Shown piece after piece: positions 23,243-55,624 of a stretch of DNA of 64,000 nucleotides; position 1 is the stretch's first letter, and every line of letters starts with the position of its first letter. The stretch is taken from contig JAGMCI010000011.1 of assembly GCA_023129325.1 (NCBI GenBank), positions 1-64,000 on the forward strand, written 5' to 3'. The translations under genes were made by a program, and so were the position numbers. The notes under the pieces are model-generated. The model saw nothing but the letters and a program-made list of their open reading frames with translations, was not told where the DNA came from and did no database searches. This DNA is from Caldifarciminota bacterium (GTDB taxonomy: Bacteria > Hydrothermota > UBA3073 > JACQXS01 > JAGMCI01).

Positions 23243-24979
23243 ATGATGTACTATCCCTATACTTCACTTATTAAAGACTATCTGGATATCAGTGAAGAAG
23301 ATAAGTCTGAAAATCCTGCATTTAGAATAGATTTAGATTGCTGTTTCAAGGACAAAGGGATCAAGGGATTTAAGAACTTTGTAAAAGCTGAATTGGGATT
23401 GAAAAAGATTGAGGTCCTTAATATAGTTGGTAAATATGATAAAGGGCTCAAACTGGGGCAGGAGAGTCTTGCCCTGATGCAGGAAGCAAATCTACAAAAG
23501 GGAAAGGCAAATTCACTCGTGACCCTTAGTGAAGTTTATGATGGTATTAGCCGCTATGATGAGATGAAAAAAGTAGCCAGAGCAGCCCACAGCATATATA
23601 AGAGACTTAAGGATAAAAAAGGTGAGGCAGAAAGCCTCAGCAATATCGGTACTGTGCATTACAGCCTTGGTGACTACAAGCAGGCACTGAAATACTACAG
23701 CCGCGCACTTAAGATACAAGAAGAAATCGGCGACCGAAGTGGTGAGGCAGTGGGTCTCAACAACATTGGTGCTGTGCATACTATGCTGGGTGACTATGAG
23801 GAGGCACTGAAATATCACAGCCGCGCACTCAAGATAAAAAAAGAAATCGGCGACCGAAGTAGTGAGGCAGCCAGCCTCAGCAACATCGGTATTGTGCATT
23901 ACAGCCTGGGTAACTACAAGCAGGCACTGAAATACTACAGCCATTCACTTAAGATAAGACAAGAAATCGGCGACCGAAGTGGTGAGGCAGTGAGTCTCAA
24001 CAATATTGGTCTCGTGCCCTCCAGCCTTGGTAACTACAAGCAGACACTGAAATACTACAGCCGCGCACTTAAGATAAGACAAGAAATCGGCGACCGAAGT
24101 GGTGAGGCAAACAGTCTCAACAACATCGGTCTTGTGCATGATAGCCTGGGTGACTACAAGACGGCACTGAAATACTACAGCCGCGCACTTAAGATAGAAA
24201 AGGAGATCGGCAACCGAAGTAGTGAGGCAGTGAGTCTCAACAACATTGGTGCTGTGTATGACAACCTGGGTGACTATGAGGAGGCACTGAAATACTACAA
24301 CCATTCACTTAGGATAAGACAAGAGATCGGCGACCGAAGTGGTGAGGCAAACAGTCTCAACAACATCGGTTTTGTGCATGATAGCCTGGGTGACTACAAG
24401 ACGGCACTGAAATACTGCAGCCGCGCACTTAAGATAAGACAAGAAATCGGCGACCGAAGGGGTGAGGCAGTGAGTCTCAACAACATCGGTAATACTCATT
24501 TGGAAACAGGTAAATTAGAAAAGGCAGAAGAATACTATACTAAAGCGCTGGATATCGCAAATGAACTGGGCTCAAAGGAGATAGACTCACGAGTTCTCTC
24601 TTCTATGGCTTCTTTTTGTATTAAAAAAGGAGATGTTGATAGGGCGGAAGGTTATCTGAAGGAAACATCGCAACTGGCAAACGAGCTGGATTCAAAGTCT
24701 GTTACTGCTTCAGCTTTTTGTCTATCTGGTCGCCTGCAAAGTCTGAAAGGTGAACTGGAAAAAGCAAAAGACTCCTTTGAGAAATCTATTGCTCTTTTCA
24801 AAGAACTAAAAGATAAATTTGGGCTTGGCAGAACATATTACTACTATGGGAAGATGAAATCCGAAAACCGAAAGCTGAAAGAAGGAAAGAAATACTTTAT
24901 TGAAGCGAAGAAGATATTTAAAGAGCTTGGCGCTGAGGGCTGGCTCCTTAAAGTAGACAAGGAATTAGCTAATAAGTAG
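23243..24979 (+). CDS. TPR repeat protein, paralogue 2 of 4 (near-identical repeats)
   Basis: 578 residues. Shares the N-terminal block YYPYTSLIKDYLDISEEDK with its neighbours. Eight consecutive 40-residue TPR units at about 123-420 (NNIGLVHDSLGDYKTALKYY type) are almost identical at the DNA level, with exact 120-bp periodicity. The C-terminal 150 residues are diverged TPRs like those of paralogue 1. No enzyme motif. Lies 57 bp after paralogue 1, the gap holding only AT-rich repeat-like sequence. Long open antisense frames across the repeats are a by-product of the repetition. Confidence 0.85.
   Translation: MMYYPYTSLIKDYLDISEEDKSENPAFRIDLDCCFKDKGIKGFKNFVKAELGLKKIEVLNIVGKYDKGLKLGQESLALMQEANLQKGKANSLVTLSEVYDGISRYDEMKKVARAAHSIYKRLKDKKGEAESLSNIGTVHYSLGDYKQALKYYSRALKIQEEIGDRSGEAVGLNNIGAVHTMLGDYEEALKYHSRALKIKKEIGDRSSEAASLSNIGIVHYSLGNYKQALKYYSHSLKIRQEIGDRSGEAVSLNNIGLVPSSLGNYKQTLKYYSRALKIRQEIGDRSGEANSLNNIGLVHDSLGDYKTALKYYSRALKIEKEIGNRSSEAVSLNNIGAVYDNLGDYEEALKYYNHSLRIRQEIGDRSGEANSLNNIGFVHDSLGDYKTALKYCSRALKIRQEIGDRRGEAVSLNNIGNTHLETGKLEKAEEYYTKALDIANELGSKEIDSRVLSSMASFCIKKGDVDRAEGYLKETSQLANELDSKSVTASAFCLSGRLQSLKGELEKAKDSFEKSIALFKELKDKFGLGRTYYYYGKMKSENRKLKEGKKYFIEAKKIFKELGAEGWLLKVDKELANK
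23618..24498 (+). repeat. 120-bp tandem coding repeats
   Basis: Seven to eight units of 120 bp, for example recurring GGCGACCGAAGTGGTGAGGC and CTGAAATACTACAGCCGCGC every 120 bp. Conservation at synonymous positions indicates recent expansion or gene conversion. Confidence 0.9.
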
Positions 24980-25009: not shown

Positions 25010-26512
25010 ATGAAAACCCCTCTTTATTATCCTTACACTTCACTTGTTAAAGACTATCTTGATATTAAGGAAGAAGATAAATCTGAGAATCCTGCATTCC
25101 GAAGGGATTTGGAGCGCTGTTTCAGGAATAGTGGTAGTAGGGGGTTCAGGAATTTTGTGAAGTCTGAGTTGGGGTTAAAAAAGATTGAAGTCCTTAATTT
25201 AATTGGTAAATACAATGAAGGACTCAAGATAGGGAAAGAATGCCTTACCCTGATGGAACAGGTAAATATAAAAAGAGGGAAGGCAGACTCACTTTTGAGC
25301 TTGAGTGAAGCTTATGATGGCATTAGTTCATATAATGAGATGAAAATTGCAGCCAAGGCAGCATACAGTATATATAAGAGTCTCAAAGATAAAAAAGGTA
25401 TGGCAATGAGTCTCAACAACATTGGTTATGTATATAGTAGTTTCGGCAATTATAACAAGGCGCTTGAATATCACAATCGTTCACTTAAGATAGAAGAAGA
25501 GACAGGCAATAGAAGTGGCGCGGCAATAAGTCTCAACAACATCGGTTATGTGTATAGTAGTCTCGGCAATCACAACAAGGCATTGGAGTATTACAATCAC
25601 TCGCTTAAAATAAGAGAAGAGATAGGCGACAGGAAAGGTGAGGCAACAAGCCTCGGCAATATTGGTAGTGTGTATAGTAGTTTCGGCAATTACAACAAGG
25701 CGCTTGAATATCACAATCGTTCACTTAAGATAGAAGAAGAGACAGGTAATAGAAGTGGCGCGGCAATAAGTCTCAATAACATTGGTTTTATGTGTGACAA
25801 TCTTGGCAACTATAAGAAGGCACTGGAATACTACAGGCGCTCACTTAAGATGCAAGAAAAGATTGGTGACAAAATGCACGATGCAACAAGCCTTAGCAAT
25901 ATCGGTTATGTGTATAAGAACCTTGGCGACTATAACAAGGCACTTAAATATCATAGCCGTTCACTTAAAATAGAAGAAGAGATAGGAAATAGAAGTGGTG
26001 AGGCAATAAGTCTTAATAACATTGGAAACATATATTTGGAAATAGAGAGGTTTGAAAAAGCGGAAGAACACTTTAATAAAGCATTAACTATTGTAAAAAA
26101 ACTGGAATCGAAGGATATGTCATTAAGCGTATTCTCTTCTTTTGCAACTCTCTGCCTTGAAAAGGAAGATATTGATAAAGCAGAGGGCTATGTAAATAAG
26201 GCAGTAGAACTTGCAGAAAAAATGGACTCAAAATCCACCAGGGCTTTTGTCCTTTGTTTATCTGGTCGCCTCGCAACTCTCAAAGGCGAATGGCAAAAAG
26301 CAAAAGAATCTTTTGAGCAAAGCATTGCTATTTTTAAAGAGATGAAGGATAAATTTGAGCTTGGCAAAACATATTACTACTATGCTAAGTCTCAAGTCTC
26401 AAGTTACAAGACTCAAGACTACAAAAAATATCTTATTGAAGCGGAAAAGTTATTTAAGGAACTTGGTGCAAAAGCTTGGCTTAAGAAAGTAGAAGCTGTT
26501 TTAAAAACTTGA
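25010..26512 (+). CDS. TPR repeat protein, paralogue 3 of 4
   Basis: 500 residues. N-terminal block YYPYTSLVKDYLDIKEEDK plus ERCFRNSGSRGFRNFVK; the latter is nearly identical in DNA to paralogue 1, which suggests gene conversion. About six 40-residue TPR units (NNIGYVYSSFGNYNKALEYH) at residues 128-345, including a 240-bp-spaced near-identical pair. A diverged TPR-like C-terminus ends GAKAWLKKVEAVLKT. The gene starts 30 bp after paralogue 2; the next start follows its stop by 2 bp. Confidence 0.85.
   Translation: MKTPLYYPYTSLVKDYLDIKEEDKSENPAFRRDLERCFRNSGSRGFRNFVKSELGLKKIEVLNLIGKYNEGLKIGKECLTLMEQVNIKRGKADSLLSLSEAYDGISSYNEMKIAAKAAYSIYKSLKDKKGMAMSLNNIGYVYSSFGNYNKALEYHNRSLKIEEETGNRSGAAISLNNIGYVYSSLGNHNKALEYYNHSLKIREEIGDRKGEATSLGNIGSVYSSFGNYNKALEYHNRSLKIEEETGNRSGAAISLNNIGFMCDNLGNYKKALEYYRRSLKMQEKIGDKMHDATSLSNIGYVYKNLGDYNKALKYHSRSLKIEEEIGNRSGEAISLNNIGNIYLEIERFEKAEEHFNKALTIVKKLESKDMSLSVFSSFATLCLEKEDIDKAEGYVNKAVELAEKMDSKSTRAFVLCLSGRLATLKGEWQKAKESFEQSIAIFKEMKDKFELGKTYYYYAKSQVSSYKTQDYKKYLIEAEKLFKELGAKAWLKKVEAVLKT
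25434..25793 (+). repeat. Near-identical duplicated TPR segment, 240 bp apart
   Basis: About 25437-25555 and 25677-25795 differ at only a few bases, including shared TTCGGCAATTA.AACAAGGCG and AGTGGCGCGGCAATAAGTCTC. A diverged unit lies between them. Confidence 0.8.
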
Positions 26513-50147: not shown

Positions 50148-50280
50148 GTCACGGATGAACACGGATAACGACACGGAACTTCACTGATTTTCTAACCACG
50201 AATTAAAAAAAGGCACACAGATTAACACAGAAAAAACGCAGATAAACACTGATTTTTTTCTTGACTTTCTCACTTTACAA
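50148..50280. repeat. ACACGGAT/ACACAGAT repeat region
   Basis: CACGGATGAACACGGATAAC then GCACACAGATTAACACAGA and ACGCAGATAAACACTGATT units, all in one orientation. The stretch 50281-50368 has a TTGACT box near 50261 and a short ORF that I do not believe; nothing else seen. Confidence 0.65.
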
Positions 50281-50368: not shown

Positions 50369-51415
50369 CTATAGTTCATATAGCCAACTTCTTCCAATTT
50401 CTTCTGAATATCTTTTGGAATTATACTTACCTGGCAAACAGAAGACTACCTGGACATCCGGATGCGACTGACAAAATAGATATGTAGCTACCGTTTGCAA
50501 TTTGCTACACTGCGGAGTAATTGCTATATTGAAATTTTCGTAAAGTATTCTCCCTTCTATCTCAGATATATAGGTTTTCTCAAGTTCATCAATGATTTTT
50601 GAAATGTAAAAAGTTGATATTGGTTTATTCTTTTTTAAATAAGGATATTGTTCAAATACTCTAAACTTTTCATGCAACTTCATAGAAAATTGAGTTCTCC
50701 ACTTAAAATATTCATGAGGTGAATCCCCGTAACAAGGAATTACGACATTAGGTCGGTAGGTTTCCAAAAGTCCGATAGCTCGTGATGGCTCATATCCTAC
50801 AAAGAAAATTAGAGTTGTAGGGAAATCTTCTTTGAAACTCCCTTTAAAATCAGTAGGAATTAATGTTTCCCGTGCACCAGATGCTTGAAGTTTTTCACTT
50901 AATTTCATTATACTCTCATCATCTTTTTTCTCTGCAAGCGTTAGTATTTCATCTTGCTCATCTTCTTTGGGATAATAGTTTTTTGCTTCTGTATATAAGA
51001 TAAAAATCTTTTTATCATAAAAAATAGTGTGTGCCATTTTTAATATAAGAAGGATCAAGAAATTTGTCATTCCTGAAATGTCAATAAAGATAGCTTCAAT
51101 TTCTTCTCTCGGTATTTTCTTTAATCTATCTGTCAAATTGTCTCGGCTGAAAAGTAGATTATCTATATCAATTTTTACATTTTTAAGATGATAAGATGAG
51201 CATTTATCTAATGAGTCTTCCAGAAAATCTAAATTTTCTTTGTTATCTTCTTGGTGCACAGTGTACTCCGAGATAAAAGAATACTTGAAAACCTTTTCAT
51301 TTAATTTTTGGAGGATATTAATTATTCCTTTCACTCTATCTTCAAATCCCCCTGCACAGATGTATAAAGAATTTTTTCTGTTTGTTATTAAGTCGGGTTT
51401 AAACTCCTGTATCAT
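50369..51415 (-). CDS. Unknown protein of the kinase/methyltransferase operon
   Basis: 348 residues from ATG 51415 (MIQEFKPDL); an upstream in-frame TTG is less likely. I cannot assign a family. Two alpha/beta halves are suggested: N-terminal SLYICAGGFEDRVKGIINIL ... AIFIDISGMTNFLILLILKM, similar in feel to CARF-like Rossmann folds with a D-S-G-M loop, and C-terminal TTLIFFVGYEPSRAIGLL ... PNVVIPCYGDSPHEYFKW. No TM segments. It overlaps the kinase gene by 17 bp, so it is part of the same operon, and may be the sensor or the effector partner of the ATPase. Confidence 0.7.
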   Translation of the reverse strand: MIQEFKPDLITNRKNSLYICAGGFEDRVKGIINILQKLNEKVFKYSFISEYTVHQEDNKENLDFLEDSLDKCSSYHLKNVKIDIDNLLFSRDNLTDRLKKIPREEIEAIFIDISGMTNFLILLILKMAHTIFYDKKIFILYTEAKNYYPKEDEQDEILTLAEKKDDESIMKLSEKLQASGARETLIPTDFKGSFKEDFPTTLIFFVGYEPSRAIGLLETYRPNVVIPCYGDSPHEYFKWRTQFSMKLHEKFRVFEQYPYLKKNKPISTFYISKIIDELEKTYISEIEGRILYENFNIAITPQCSKLQTVATYLFCQSHPDVQVVFCLPGKYNSKRYSEEIGRSWLYEL

Positions 51416-54116
51416 TTTTATTGCCCCTTTTAAAGTCAAAAAGCATAGGTTGAGAATCGTCCTTTATACCTTTCTCAATTAACCTCTTCCTAAATCTATC
51501 TGGCTCTGTCAGAAATTCTTCAAGTTGTTTTTTGATGAGTCGCAAATGCTCTCTTTCCCTGAAGGTTGTTCTGAGTTTAGGAGTATATTTCTTGTGCAAA
51601 GTAAATTTTTGGACTAATCCCATCTGCTCTCTTGAGAAACTAAAACCTTTATCGAGAAACACAGAATGACGAATTAATTTTCCTAACAACTTCTCTGCAT
51701 TGCCAGAGAGTTTTTCTGAATCTTTTCGTTCTATTGTAATCATTTCATATTTTCTACCTTTTTTCTTTGTTATCTCTCGCTCTAAGTATTTTCTTGAAAT
51801 TTCACCAAAATTTCTAACAACATCAAAAATTTCTTTGCCTATGGATTCAATGTTGATTAGAGAAGCATATACTTCCTCAGAATATTTTCTAATTCCTTTG
51901 TCTTGAATTTCTATAGAGATTATATCCTCACCCTTTTTCAGTTTTTCGTGTTTTTGGGGGTCTCCGTATTGTTTAAAAATAGACTCGCAAATTGCTAACC
52001 CGTCCCGAACACTCCAAGAAGATAATTGAACAAGCAACTTCCACCCACCGTATTTAGTTTTAGTGTAAGTTTTTTTTGATAAAAAATCAATTAACTTTTC
52101 ATGTGTATAGGGCAGTTTTTTAAGATACTCTTTTATTTTTTTAGCGTATCCCCCAATTTCTAATTGTCGATTTATTATTTTTTTAAGATACTCTTTATAA
52201 TTATCCATCTCAGACATATCAATATATGCATAATCATGAGGTAGTTGTAATGCCTTGCCAAACATATCTTCAAAAGTATAGGCGTATTTATCTGTTGAGA
52301 ACTTGCAGCAATATATTTCATTGTGACAAGCCATTAGACAATTGAGTATCTTTTGGACTTCCAGATTGACTTGAGGTTCACTGACATCATCGAATATAAT
52401 ATAAAACCTTTTATCCAATAGCTCAGAAACAGATTTTTTAACTGTTTTAAAGAATTGTATCAAAATATTTTCATTTAATAATTTGCTTTCAGATGGGTAT
52501 TTTGGTATATCTCCTAATATATCTATGCAACAATTCTCTTCATTTCTTAAAATAGATGTGAGCTCCTTAAAGGGTTTCTCACGAGCAGATATAGTCATTC
52601 TAATTTCCTTAAGCAACAGATAATCAGAAAGAAAATTCAATATTAATTCTGGTTTGGGCTCACTCGTGAATATTTCCTCATTGTACGCCTCAGCTATTAA
52701 AGAAACTGTTCTTCTAATAATTTTCAATATCAGTATGTGCTTAAGAAATAGCTGATTTTTAAATTCTTTGAAATTGTACTGTTTATCAGAAAAATACTTA
52801 AATTCACCTTGCCTACAAGGGAAATAGATGCCAAAAATTCCTTTAAAATAAGCTACTTTGTTTTTTATCTTTATATATTGGGGTTTTTGAGCTAATTTTA
52901 TTAATCTAGGGATAAAACTTAACGATCTCAGATAAATTGTTTTACCTCCACCTCTTGGGCCCGAACATATAAGTGGTCCAAAATTTATAAAATTGCTGTA
53001 TAGTCGAAGTTCGGGCTCAAACCGCTCAAGCCACAAGAGCTCTTTTACATCGTAGTTTTCAAATATAAGATAATTAAACGGTTGTTCTATAGAAAGTTTT
53101 TCACCACTTGGTATTTTCTCCGAAAGACCATTAATTACTGCTTCAATAGAAGTATATTTGTTTTGAATAAGATTACCATATATATAAAAAAGTCTCTCCT
53201 CTAATTTTTTTCTATCTATTTTGCCCGATGGAGTTAAACAATATTTTCTAATTATTTTGAGAAAGTTCTCTTTAAAATATTCAAAGTCAGTTTTCTCATA
53301 TTCTCTGAACTCCCCAGATGAGTTTACCCCAATGAAATCTATGAGTCTAAAATGAAATATTCCTCGTTTTTGATATTCTTCTATTTCATCATCCTCTACT
53401 AAAATATTGTTATCATGAAGGTCTCCATGCATAAACCCATTGTCTTTAATTGTTTTTAGTGCTCCTCCTACTTCCCTGATGAAATTTCTTAATGTTTCCT
53501 GTAAGGCCATGTTTGTATTTTTTGCTAAAAATTCCCTCAAGGAATCGCCTTCAACATATTCCATCACGACATACTTCAAATTTATATCAGTATAAGGAAA
53601 TTCGCCCCAGTCAAATGGAACCACTAAATGCGAAGATTTGAGATGGATTATTTTTTTAATCTTTTCTTCAAAATTTATATGATCTAATATGCCTGGTTTG
53701 AACACCTTCAGTACAACATCTCGTCCAGTTTTTTTTATATTTGCTTTGTAAGTTACAGAAGTAGAACCTTTGCCTAATGACTTCATTAAAGTGTATCCAT
53801 TAATTATTTTAGGAGGTAAATTACTAATATCGTATTGGGAATATTTCACCGTTTTTACTATGTCTTTCCCTTTTTCAGAGAGGCTAAGCACCTCTTCCTT
53901 TAATTCTATGAATTTATTGGCTATCAAAAAGTCCATTAGAGTATCAAATTGGGGGAGAAGTTTCTCGACTTTTCCTTTTAAACCAGATAATTTAATCCCT
54001 TGGTGTCGACTAATATAGATTAGCAGTATTAATGCCTCCTTGTTCTTCAGAAGTTTTGTTTCTTTTTTATACTTTTCCAATAGTTTCCAAATTTCTCTTA
54101 TGCTACTTGTTGTCAT
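51399..54116 (-). CDS. wHTH - protein kinase - P-loop NTPase fusion
   Basis: 905 residues. Order: winged-helix-like domain (about 25-90); Ser/Thr-type kinase (about 107-265) with G-loop SLGKGSTSVTYKA, K137 (VVLKVF), H230-G-D-L-H234 (HGDLHDNNILV) and D260-F-I; then an ORC/STAND-like NTPase with Walker A GPRGGGKT (386-393) and a Walker B-like YIIFDDVSEP near residue 575; then a helical C-terminal region. All kinase catalytic residues are present. Starts directly after the stop of the preceding gene. The fusion of kinase and NTPase next to a DNA methyltransferase recalls phage-defence signalling; the specific system is unknown to me. Confidence 0.82.
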   Translation of the reverse strand: MTTSSIREIWKLLEKYKKETKLLKNKEALILLIYISRHQGIKLSGLKGKVEKLLPQFDTLMDFLIANKFIELKEEVLSLSEKGKDIVKTVKYSQYDISNLPPKIINGYTLMKSLGKGSTSVTYKANIKKTGRDVVLKVFKPGILDHINFEEKIKKIIHLKSSHLVVPFDWGEFPYTDINLKYVVMEYVEGDSLREFLAKNTNMALQETLRNFIREVGGALKTIKDNGFMHGDLHDNNILVEDDEIEEYQKRGIFHFRLIDFIGVNSSGEFREYEKTDFEYFKENFLKIIRKYCLTPSGKIDRKKLEERLFYIYGNLIQNKYTSIEAVINGLSEKIPSGEKLSIEQPFNYLIFENYDVKELLWLERFEPELRLYSNFINFGPLICSGPRGGGKTIYLRSLSFIPRLIKLAQKPQYIKIKNKVAYFKGIFGIYFPCRQGEFKYFSDKQYNFKEFKNQLFLKHILILKIIRRTVSLIAEAYNEEIFTSEPKPELILNFLSDYLLLKEIRMTISAREKPFKELTSILRNEENCCIDILGDIPKYPSESKLLNENILIQFFKTVKKSVSELLDKRFYIIFDDVSEPQVNLEVQKILNCLMACHNEIYCCKFSTDKYAYTFEDMFGKALQLPHDYAYIDMSEMDNYKEYLKKIINRQLEIGGYAKKIKEYLKKLPYTHEKLIDFLSKKTYTKTKYGGWKLLVQLSSWSVRDGLAICESIFKQYGDPQKHEKLKKGEDIISIEIQDKGIRKYSEEVYASLINIESIGKEIFDVVRNFGEISRKYLEREITKKKGRKYEMITIERKDSEKLSGNAEKLLGKLIRHSVFLDKGFSFSREQMGLVQKFTLHKKYTPKLRTTFREREHLRLIKKQLEEFLTEPDRFRKRLIEKGIKDDSQPMLFDFKRGNKNDTGV

Positions 54117-54707
54117 TTATCTTACTCCTTTATATTTTACATAAGTATAGTATATTGAAACTATTCTTATATCTTCAGCTATTTCTGATACTTTTTTACC
54201 CACCTTGCATTTATTGATATCATCCCTACAAAAAGTATCTAAATGTCCCTTACCCCCACGGATGAAGCCTATATTATCATTTAGTGTCCATGCGGAATGA
54301 GACTTACAATCGTTTGCATAGAAGCAATATATTTTTGAGACACACTCTGGAAGACCAGAAAAGGCACTTAATTCATGCTCTACCCCTGGACAATTTGGAA
54401 CATATATAAATACAGCTATGTCGCACCAATGTTCTATTGAATATTTCTCAAAAGCGGTTATATTTGAGAATTCTTTCCCTTGCTTTTTTGCCTCTTCATA
54501 TGCTTCTTCTGGTAATACTGCATTGTGCTTATTTTCTATCAACAATTTCTTGATTTGCAAACGCTTGTTATAACATGCCTTCGCATACTCATCAGGGTTT
54601 CCTTTACCGGGACCAAATATTAGGACTTTCAGTTTCTCTTTTTGTAGAGCATTTTCGTATTTTTTTACCATACTACTTTTTATAAATTCAATCTCACTAT
54701 TGCTCAT
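54117..54707 (-). CDS. Alpha/beta protein of NDT/TIR/SLOG-like type
   Basis: 196 residues. The core at about 26-125 reads KVLIFGPGKGNPDEYAKACYN-type strand and loop, a helix with KRLQIKKLLIENKHNAVLPEE, then CDIAVFIYVPNCPGVEHELSAF. The pattern of a loop after strand 1, a D at the end of strand 4 (D96) and a PG-x-x-E (E110/E112) resembles nucleoside deoxyribosyltransferase, TIR and SLOG folds that act on nucleotides or NAD. That assignment is inference. It overlaps the methyltransferase gene by 11 bp and abuts the kinase gene, so it is likely the enzyme effector of the operon. Confidence 0.65.
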   Translation of the reverse strand: MSNSEIEFIKSSMVKKYENALQKEKLKVLIFGPGKGNPDEYAKACYNKRLQIKKLLIENKHNAVLPEEAYEEAKKQGKEFSNITAFEKYSIEHWCDIAVFIYVPNCPGVEHELSAFSGLPECVSKIYCFYANDCKSHSAWTLNDNIGFIRGGKGHLDTFCRDDINKCKVGKKVSEIAEDIRIVSIYYTYVKYKGVR

Positions 54708-55542
54708 ACTTTTTCACCTTGTTTTTATAGAAAACAAGAATAGAAGCGTGTTTGCTTGTCTCTTTAAGACTCATCATAGCTTTATCAATATATTCTTTTT
54801 TTATATCTATACCGATGGAGTTTCTGTTTAATTTCAAAGCCTCTAAATTTGTTGTTCCTATTCCACAAAATGGATCTAACACAGTATTGCCATAAAAAGA
54901 ATACATTTTAATTAACCTATAGGGAAGTTCATTAGGGAAAACCGCTGGATGCTCTTTCTTGCTCACTCCATTTAAATACCATATTGGTTCCCTGAATTTT
55001 CTAAATTCTTCTTTTGTTATTCTAGATTTTTCTTTTATTTCTTTGGAAACTTTTCTCCTTCCTATTTTTCTGAATACATGAATCGCTTCCAATGCCGTAG
55101 AAATCATAAAATTGGAAGGATAGGGATAACTACCAAATAGAACAGCACCGTTCCGTGAGGTAGTTTTTTTCCAATAAATAGTACCCATAAATTTCAAGTC
55201 TTTGTGCTTATCCAAAAATTTCCATAAGTCTAAAATCAAATTTACAGTATACTTTCTTTTCTCATCGTTTTTATTACTATAAATATTGCCCATATTTAAA
55301 GCAATTTTACCATCTGGTAATAATATCCTGATGCACTCTTTAAAAATATTTCCCATTTTTATAAGATACTCTTCATACTTATCATTGAAACCAATCTGTT
55401 TATGATGCTTATAATCTCGGGCATTCCAATAAGGTGGAGAAGTAACTATTAGTTGCACACTAGCATTTCTTAGCTCACGTAGTTCTTCATCGGTGCCACC
55501 TACATATAGCTCATGTATAGTTTTGTTGCATGTCTCATTCAT
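54697..55542 (-). CDS. DNA methyltransferase, beta-class (m4C or m6A)
   Basis: 281 residues. Motif IV TSPPYWNARDY (34-39 TSPPYW) comes before motif I DPFCGIGTT (223-231), the beta-class order. TSPPYW is more common in N4-cytosine enzymes, but N6-adenine cannot be excluded. No target-recognition domain beyond the central variable region (about 130-195). No restriction enzyme gene is recognised next to it. First gene of the four-gene operon, with its own promoter. Confidence 0.88.
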   Translation of the reverse strand: MNETCNKTIHELYVGGTDEELRELRNASVQLIVTSPPYWNARDYKHHKQIGFNDKYEEYLIKMGNIFKECIRILLPDGKIALNMGNIYSNKNDEKRKYTVNLILDLWKFLDKHKDLKFMGTIYWKKTTSRNGAVLFGSYPYPSNFMISTALEAIHVFRKIGRRKVSKEIKEKSRITKEEFRKFREPIWYLNGVSKKEHPAVFPNELPYRLIKMYSFYGNTVLDPFCGIGTTNLEALKLNRNSIGIDIKKEYIDKAMMSLKETSKHASILVFYKNKVKKYEQ

Positions 55543-55596: not shown

Positions 55597-55624
55597 ATTT
55601 TACTATAAAAAACACATTTGTCAA
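55597..55624 (-). promoter_or_regulatory. Promoter of the methyltransferase-kinase operon
   Basis: Minus strand TTGACA (55624-55619), 16-bp spacer, TAAAAT (55602-55597), then a leader of about 50 nt with a weak AGGAAGA before ATG 55542. Confidence 0.65.

Follow-up and report, generated by a model that had tools for sequence, protein, structure and literature searches.

A candidate anti-invader cassette in Caldifarciminota combining an NDT-like enzyme with an ORC-CDC6-like ATPase and a CARF6-family sensor

What does a compact operon of four genes do for the Caldifarciminota bacterium that carries it, and does it belong to any system already described? The original prediction, concerning the stretch of 64,000 nucleotides analysed here (the window), saw in it a candidate undescribed defence system made of a methyltransferase, an NDT-type enzyme, a switch protein with kinase and P-loop parts, and an unknown fourth protein. 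Our profile searches agree with the first three assignments, whereas the fourth protein turns out to match CARF6 profiles (2e-24). The four genes, all encoded on the same strand (Table 1), overlap or abut as had been claimed: the methylase and NDT-like genes overlap by 11 bp, the NDT-like gene directly abuts the kinase gene (0 bp), and the latter overlaps the CARF6 gene by 17 bp or 41 bp if translation of the last gene starts at the ATG or at the TTG codon, respectively. Purine-rich, Shine-Dalgarno-like sequences precede the gene starts and the operon looks co-transcribed. As for the proposed shared promoter, a site with 11 of 12 consensus matches is present 55 bases upstream of the methylase start, but promoter-like sites are no more numerous in the region than in shuffled sequences, so that a single promoter for the operon is no more than plausible.

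Table 1 Features of the operon, in window coordinates
Feature	Position	Strand	Description	Basis
ORF1	54697..55542	-	Beta-class DNA amino-methyltransferase, 281 aa	PF01555, PADLOC MTase_II, motifs
ORF2	54117..54707	-	NDT-like N-glycosidase, 196 aa, predicted effector, candidate catalytic Glu112	Profiles and predicted structure
ORF3	51399..54116	-	905 aa; ~95 aa N-terminal part, kinase about 108-261, ORC-CDC6-like ATPase about 371-end	
ORF4	50369..51415 (ATG) or 50369..51439 (TTG)	-	CARF6-family protein, 348 aa (ATG) or 356 aa (TTG)	PADLOC profiles, alignment
Promoter-like site	55597..55624	-	TTGACA-16-TAAAAT, upstream of ORF1	Sigma-70-like consensus scan, 11/12 matches

Profile searches identify ORF1 as an N4/N6 DNA methylase (PF01555, 3e-42; PADLOC MTase_II, 2e-65). 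We assign it to the beta class because its TSPPY motif (residue 34) precedes FCGIGTT (residue 225), an order typical of that class, and the SPPY motif suggests N4-methylcytosine (m4C) as its product. ORF3 combines a kinase domain (PF00069, 5.8e-15), with the residues K137, HGDLHDNN at 230 and D260, and a P-loop part that corresponds to an ORC-CDC6-like ATPase (PF24389, 8e-33), with an arginine within its P-loop (GPRGGGKT at 386). It matches the PADLOC CARF6 model CARF_STK_AAA (7e-19), and mad6 is the best PADLOC model for its kinase domain (4e-20). No profile confirms the wHTH domain that had been proposed for its N-terminal ~95 residues.

ORF4 matches the PADLOC profile PDLC01917 (2.2e-24), seven further CARF6 profiles and the C-terminal part of CARF_STK_AAA (6e-11). 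The alignment of 18 homologues reveals two Rossmann-like halves, each containing a G[FY]ExxR motif. By these PADLOC profiles ORF4 is a predicted CARF6-family sensor, a label supported by weak cross-matches of two homologues, one to CARF1 and CARF_Card1 (locus L014) and the other to CARF3 (L031). An ORF4 profile compared with the PDB retrieved no CARF match, and the AlphaFold model of the protein (50369-51415; pLDDT 44.7) is unreliable and too poor for a structure search. CARF domains bind nucleotide ligands, and a census of them was reportedly made by Makarova in 2020. Since ORF3 and ORF4 both match CARF_STK_AAA/CARF6 profiles, together they correspond to a known fused protein type divided over two genes; in locus L012 a CARF of the ORF4 type is indeed fused to the C-terminus of an ORF3-type protein.

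Structure prediction was more informative for ORF2 (54117-54707). This protein matches the PADLOC NDT_II-A model (5e-4 for the window protein and 2.5e-7 for its homologue in locus L003), and a two-row ORF2 profile compared with the PDB has as top match the retron Ec86 effector 7v9x (E=0.016), a weak sequence match when taken alone, in which Glu112 of ORF2 lies opposite the catalytic Glu106 of Ec86. The three best Foldseek matches of its AlphaFold model (pLDDT 69, pTM 0.68) are 7xjg (5.8e-5), 8qbl (2.3e-4; entitled ‘inactive effector (E106A)’) and 8qbk, all of them retron Ec86/Eco1 effectors, followed by nucleoside/CMP N-glycosidases such as MilB. By sequence and predicted fold, ORF2 thus matches the NAD-cleaving effectors of type II-A retrons, and it probably destroys NAD or nucleotides, NAD being the presumed substrate. 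Ec86 defence works through NAD+ hydrolysis (PMC12405507).

An identically ordered set of these four genes is present in the archaeal MAG Candidatus Argoarchaeum (L003), which implies that the set is under selection and rules out that the genes are chance neighbours. Identities between the two operons reach 68% for ORF1, 52% for ORF3 (51% when first found) and 52% for ORF4, ORF2 diverging fastest of the four (38%). The homologous genes thus keep their association across domains, and a search of 385 genomes (147 + 238) gave no member of the ORF2 family other than those in this cassette. The cassette was absent from all other searched genomes of the window's order, so that its distribution is patchy and it is probably mobile; a viral origin was rejected, as relatives were found neither in viral contigs nor in phage records.

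A wider class emerged when the ATPase (PF24389) or ORF3 served as query (E<=1e-10), with strong ORC matches in 13 genomes (5 of the 147 and 8 of the 238); together with five plasmid loci found via their CARF gene and with an adjoining ATPase, they make up 18 cassettes. Two loci with weak ORC matches and no CARF neighbour (L029 and L030) were excluded. CARF6 is adjacent to or fused with the ATPase in all 13 genomes (the CARF gene of L013 is cut by the contig end), and 14 of the 18 cassettes contain a DNA methylase (10/13 genomes and 4/5 plasmid loci), some of these labels being based on catalytic motifs and record annotation, not on profile search. The cassettes without methylase are L051, with a DpdA/DUF6884-like gene instead, L028 and L015, with none recognized, and L032, cut at the record start. 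Seven loci are of the kinase type (the window, L003, L012, L013, L014, L031 and L052), every one of them with an SPPY methylase directly upstream. The ATPase tree places them in one supported group (97/99) and the CARF tree concurs, more weakly (92/92), with the window and L003 as sisters (100/100). The kinase-ATPase genes of L013 and L052 are interrupted, by either decay or sequencing error. ORF2 is present only in the window and L003, in just 2 of the 18 cassettes, and therefore the core works without it. The effector slot is otherwise occupied by HD-CE (L027, L033, L034, L049 and L053, the last four by Pfam), PRTase-CE (L026), a fused SIR2, ThsA-like domain (L051) or a metallophosphoesterase (L050). 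Since the PRTase-CE protein resembles the retron PRTase_III-A (7e-31) just as ORF2 resembles NDT_II-A, the effector families are those of proven defence systems. As retrons and Thoeris share the contents of this exchangeable slot (NDT, HD, PRTase, SIR2, kinase), it seems that one set of NAD- and nucleotide-acting enzymes is passed among unrelated sensors of different defence systems.

How much of this composition is new? The initial statement that no named system has it was too strong, given the CARF6 identity of ORF4 and the known parts it joins. A kinase plus AAA+ ATPase with an arginine inside the P-loop, fused upstream of a CARF, was described in 2014 (PMC4012209), and PADLOC contains CARF_STK_AAA (PDLC01925), which has the same kinase, Arg-in-P-loop ATPase and CARF6 part as our operon; here, by contrast, CARF and kinase-ATPase are encoded by two genes, and a methylase and an NDT-like enzyme precede them. 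Cassettes with the PF24389 ATPase and HD-CE (PF24391) or PRTase-CE (PF24390) share with the window the ATPase, CARF6 and a DNA methylase, but differ in methylase class and in their effector slot, filled in the window by the kinase and the NDT-like enzyme. The consecutive accessions PF24389, PF24390 and PF24391 suggest a common source linking these families, possibly Burroughs and Aravind 2020. The chassis is therefore already known at the family level from PADLOC, Pfam and the 2014 work, and the operon, with its NDT-like gene and this methylase, seems to be one form of a larger modular class. What stands of the claim to an undescribed system is this pairing: in the literature searched, neither an NDT-like effector nor this methylase type turned up in any description of such a cassette.

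Membership in other systems was rejected case by case. Type II-A retrons (Ec86/Eco1) have an NDT-like effector with a conserved catalytic Glu, as predicted for ORF2, although the latter is shorter (196 aa versus 307 aa in Ec86) and is matched over the NDT part only; the operon and the ten flanking genes scanned contain no reverse transcriptase. BREX/Pgl systems are similar in their methylase, kinase (PglW-like at the domain level only) and ORC-type ATPase, BrxC/BrxD being ORC/Cdc6 proteins (PMC12839542), but no PglZ, BrxX or BrxC-family gene exists in the operon or its flanks. The exclusion of BREX in the original prediction holds, the genome yielding a single protein with a PglZ domain, a PorX-like response regulator with an adjacent histidine kinase on another contig (L065 835-2340, G000:C56). 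The likeness to MADS is confined to the partial match of the kinase domain to mad6, all other MADS genes being absent. A CARF effector accessory to type III CRISPR was likewise discarded, as no Cas10 (PF22335, E<=0.01) was detected in the source genome, which is 89% complete. CARF6 thus represents here a CARF branch without evident CRISPR link.

We consider it reasonably probable that the operon is an anti-invader cassette, belonging to a modular class whose core is an ORC-CDC6-like ATPase together with a CARF6 sensor, and the gene set is coherent with the defence role first proposed for it. ORF1 would methylate host DNA and mark it as self, acting as a putative self/non-self gate. ORF3, with its ATPase and kinase, and ORF4, with its CARF, would together form the switch, in agreement with their linkage by constant adjacency and by the fusion in L012: the ATPase may contact DNA or assemble in ORC style, ORF4 may sense a nucleotide-type or invader-derived signal, and the ATP/kinase activity of ORF3 would relay it, possibly with ORF2 as kinase target. 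Once released or phosphorylated, ORF2, as an NDT-fold N-glycosidase, would destroy NAD+ or nucleotides, leaving the infected cell dormant or dead. Against this reading stand the housekeeping genes around the operon, the absence from it of any known maker of cyclic nucleotides together with the failure to detect Cas10, the presence of ORF2 in just two cassettes, the weak PDB sequence match of ORF2 and the dependence of ORF4's CARF label on PADLOC profiles. More tentatively, and with some doubt, we propose a general, formally unrecognized defence class in which a fixed chassis of DNA modification enzyme, ORC-CDC6-like ATPase and CARF6 sensor would receive plug-in effectors common to retrons and Thoeris; the window would contribute a new effector type, an NDT-like N-glycosidase under the control of a protein kinase rather than of a reverse transcriptase and msDNA. 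Compact, conserved across a bacterial and an archaeal genome, and offering an obvious toxin candidate as well as putative catalytic residues, this operon makes CARF6 sensing testable.

Alternatively, ORF2 might be the signal maker, comparable to the TIR protein of Thoeris, producing a nucleotide-derived messenger sensed by ORF4, with the kinase/ATPase as effector, acting by phosphorylation of proteins of the host or the phage. The ligand-binding capacity of CARF domains fits this scheme, no other messenger synthase being encoded in the operon, and in the five kinase-type loci without ORF2 (L012, L013, L014, L031 and L052) the kinase is the sole enzyme besides the ATPase and the methylase, as it should be if it acts as effector. 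Nevertheless, CARF6 is present in all cassettes and ORF2 in few, so that the ligand cannot generally come from ORF2, and the nearest structural relatives of ORF2 are NAD-hydrolysing retron effectors, which makes this scheme rather unlikely.

A restriction-modification-like or addiction module, in which the methylase would shield host DNA and the ORC/CARF/kinase complex would attack cells with unmodified DNA, mainly maintaining a mobile element, would agree with the DNA-modifying gene in most cassettes, with the annotated restriction endonuclease close to L031 and with the plasmid location of several relatives. Its mechanism overlaps with that of the anti-invader cassette, but neither the window operon nor L003 has a nuclease and the effector slot is occupied by nucleotide- or NAD-acting enzymes, and we regard it as improbable. 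Finally, ORC-CDC6-like ATPases can act on DNA and some relatives are adjoined by ThyX and MutY-like genes, as would befit an ordinary regulatory operon for kinase-linked control of DNA replication or repair, with no role in defence; the patchy spread (5/147 and 8/238 genomes), transfer between domains, plasmids and exchangeable toxin-like effectors make such an operon very improbable.

The surroundings of the operon are those of housekeeping genes: MFS, PlsY, M23 peptidase, AsnS and DUF4015, and Tgt, FabH and POR/KOR-type oxidoreductase subunits. No defence island was detected among the ten flanking genes scanned. The AsnS-DUF4015 pair is conserved in genome G001, whose contig stops just past DUF4015. 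The repeat elements thought to border the operon on both sides seem to be repeats of the genome at large and not limits of the operon. The left-hand one, CACAGATTAACACAGA at 50216, is dispersed, with five copies in the window against 0.02 expected (14042, 15208, 44410, 44429 and 50216), and no second copy of the right-hand one (55637) was found within the window. Elsewhere in the window, two arrays of 120-bp tandem repeats (23621-24491 and 25402-26025) have coding-like periodicity and possibly encode TPR repeats.

Several neighbours recur in the wider class. The DpdA/DUF6884-like protein of L051 (2682-4004), of the 7-deazaguanine DNA modification type, lies beside the SIR2-ORC and CARF6 pair, and the third gene of L028 (2492-3193), with no Pfam match, resembles by eye its N-terminal part. 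In five cassettes (L026 4132-4755, L027 3456-3929, L031 7100-8023, L034 6490-7449 and L053 6959-7897) the CARF gene has as neighbour a gene for ThyX, the FAD-dependent thymidylate synthase, and an HhH-GPD glycosylase of the MutY/EndoIII type adjoins three cassettes with C5-methylases (L026, L027 and L049), a possible link to nucleotide metabolism or to the repair of deaminated 5mC.
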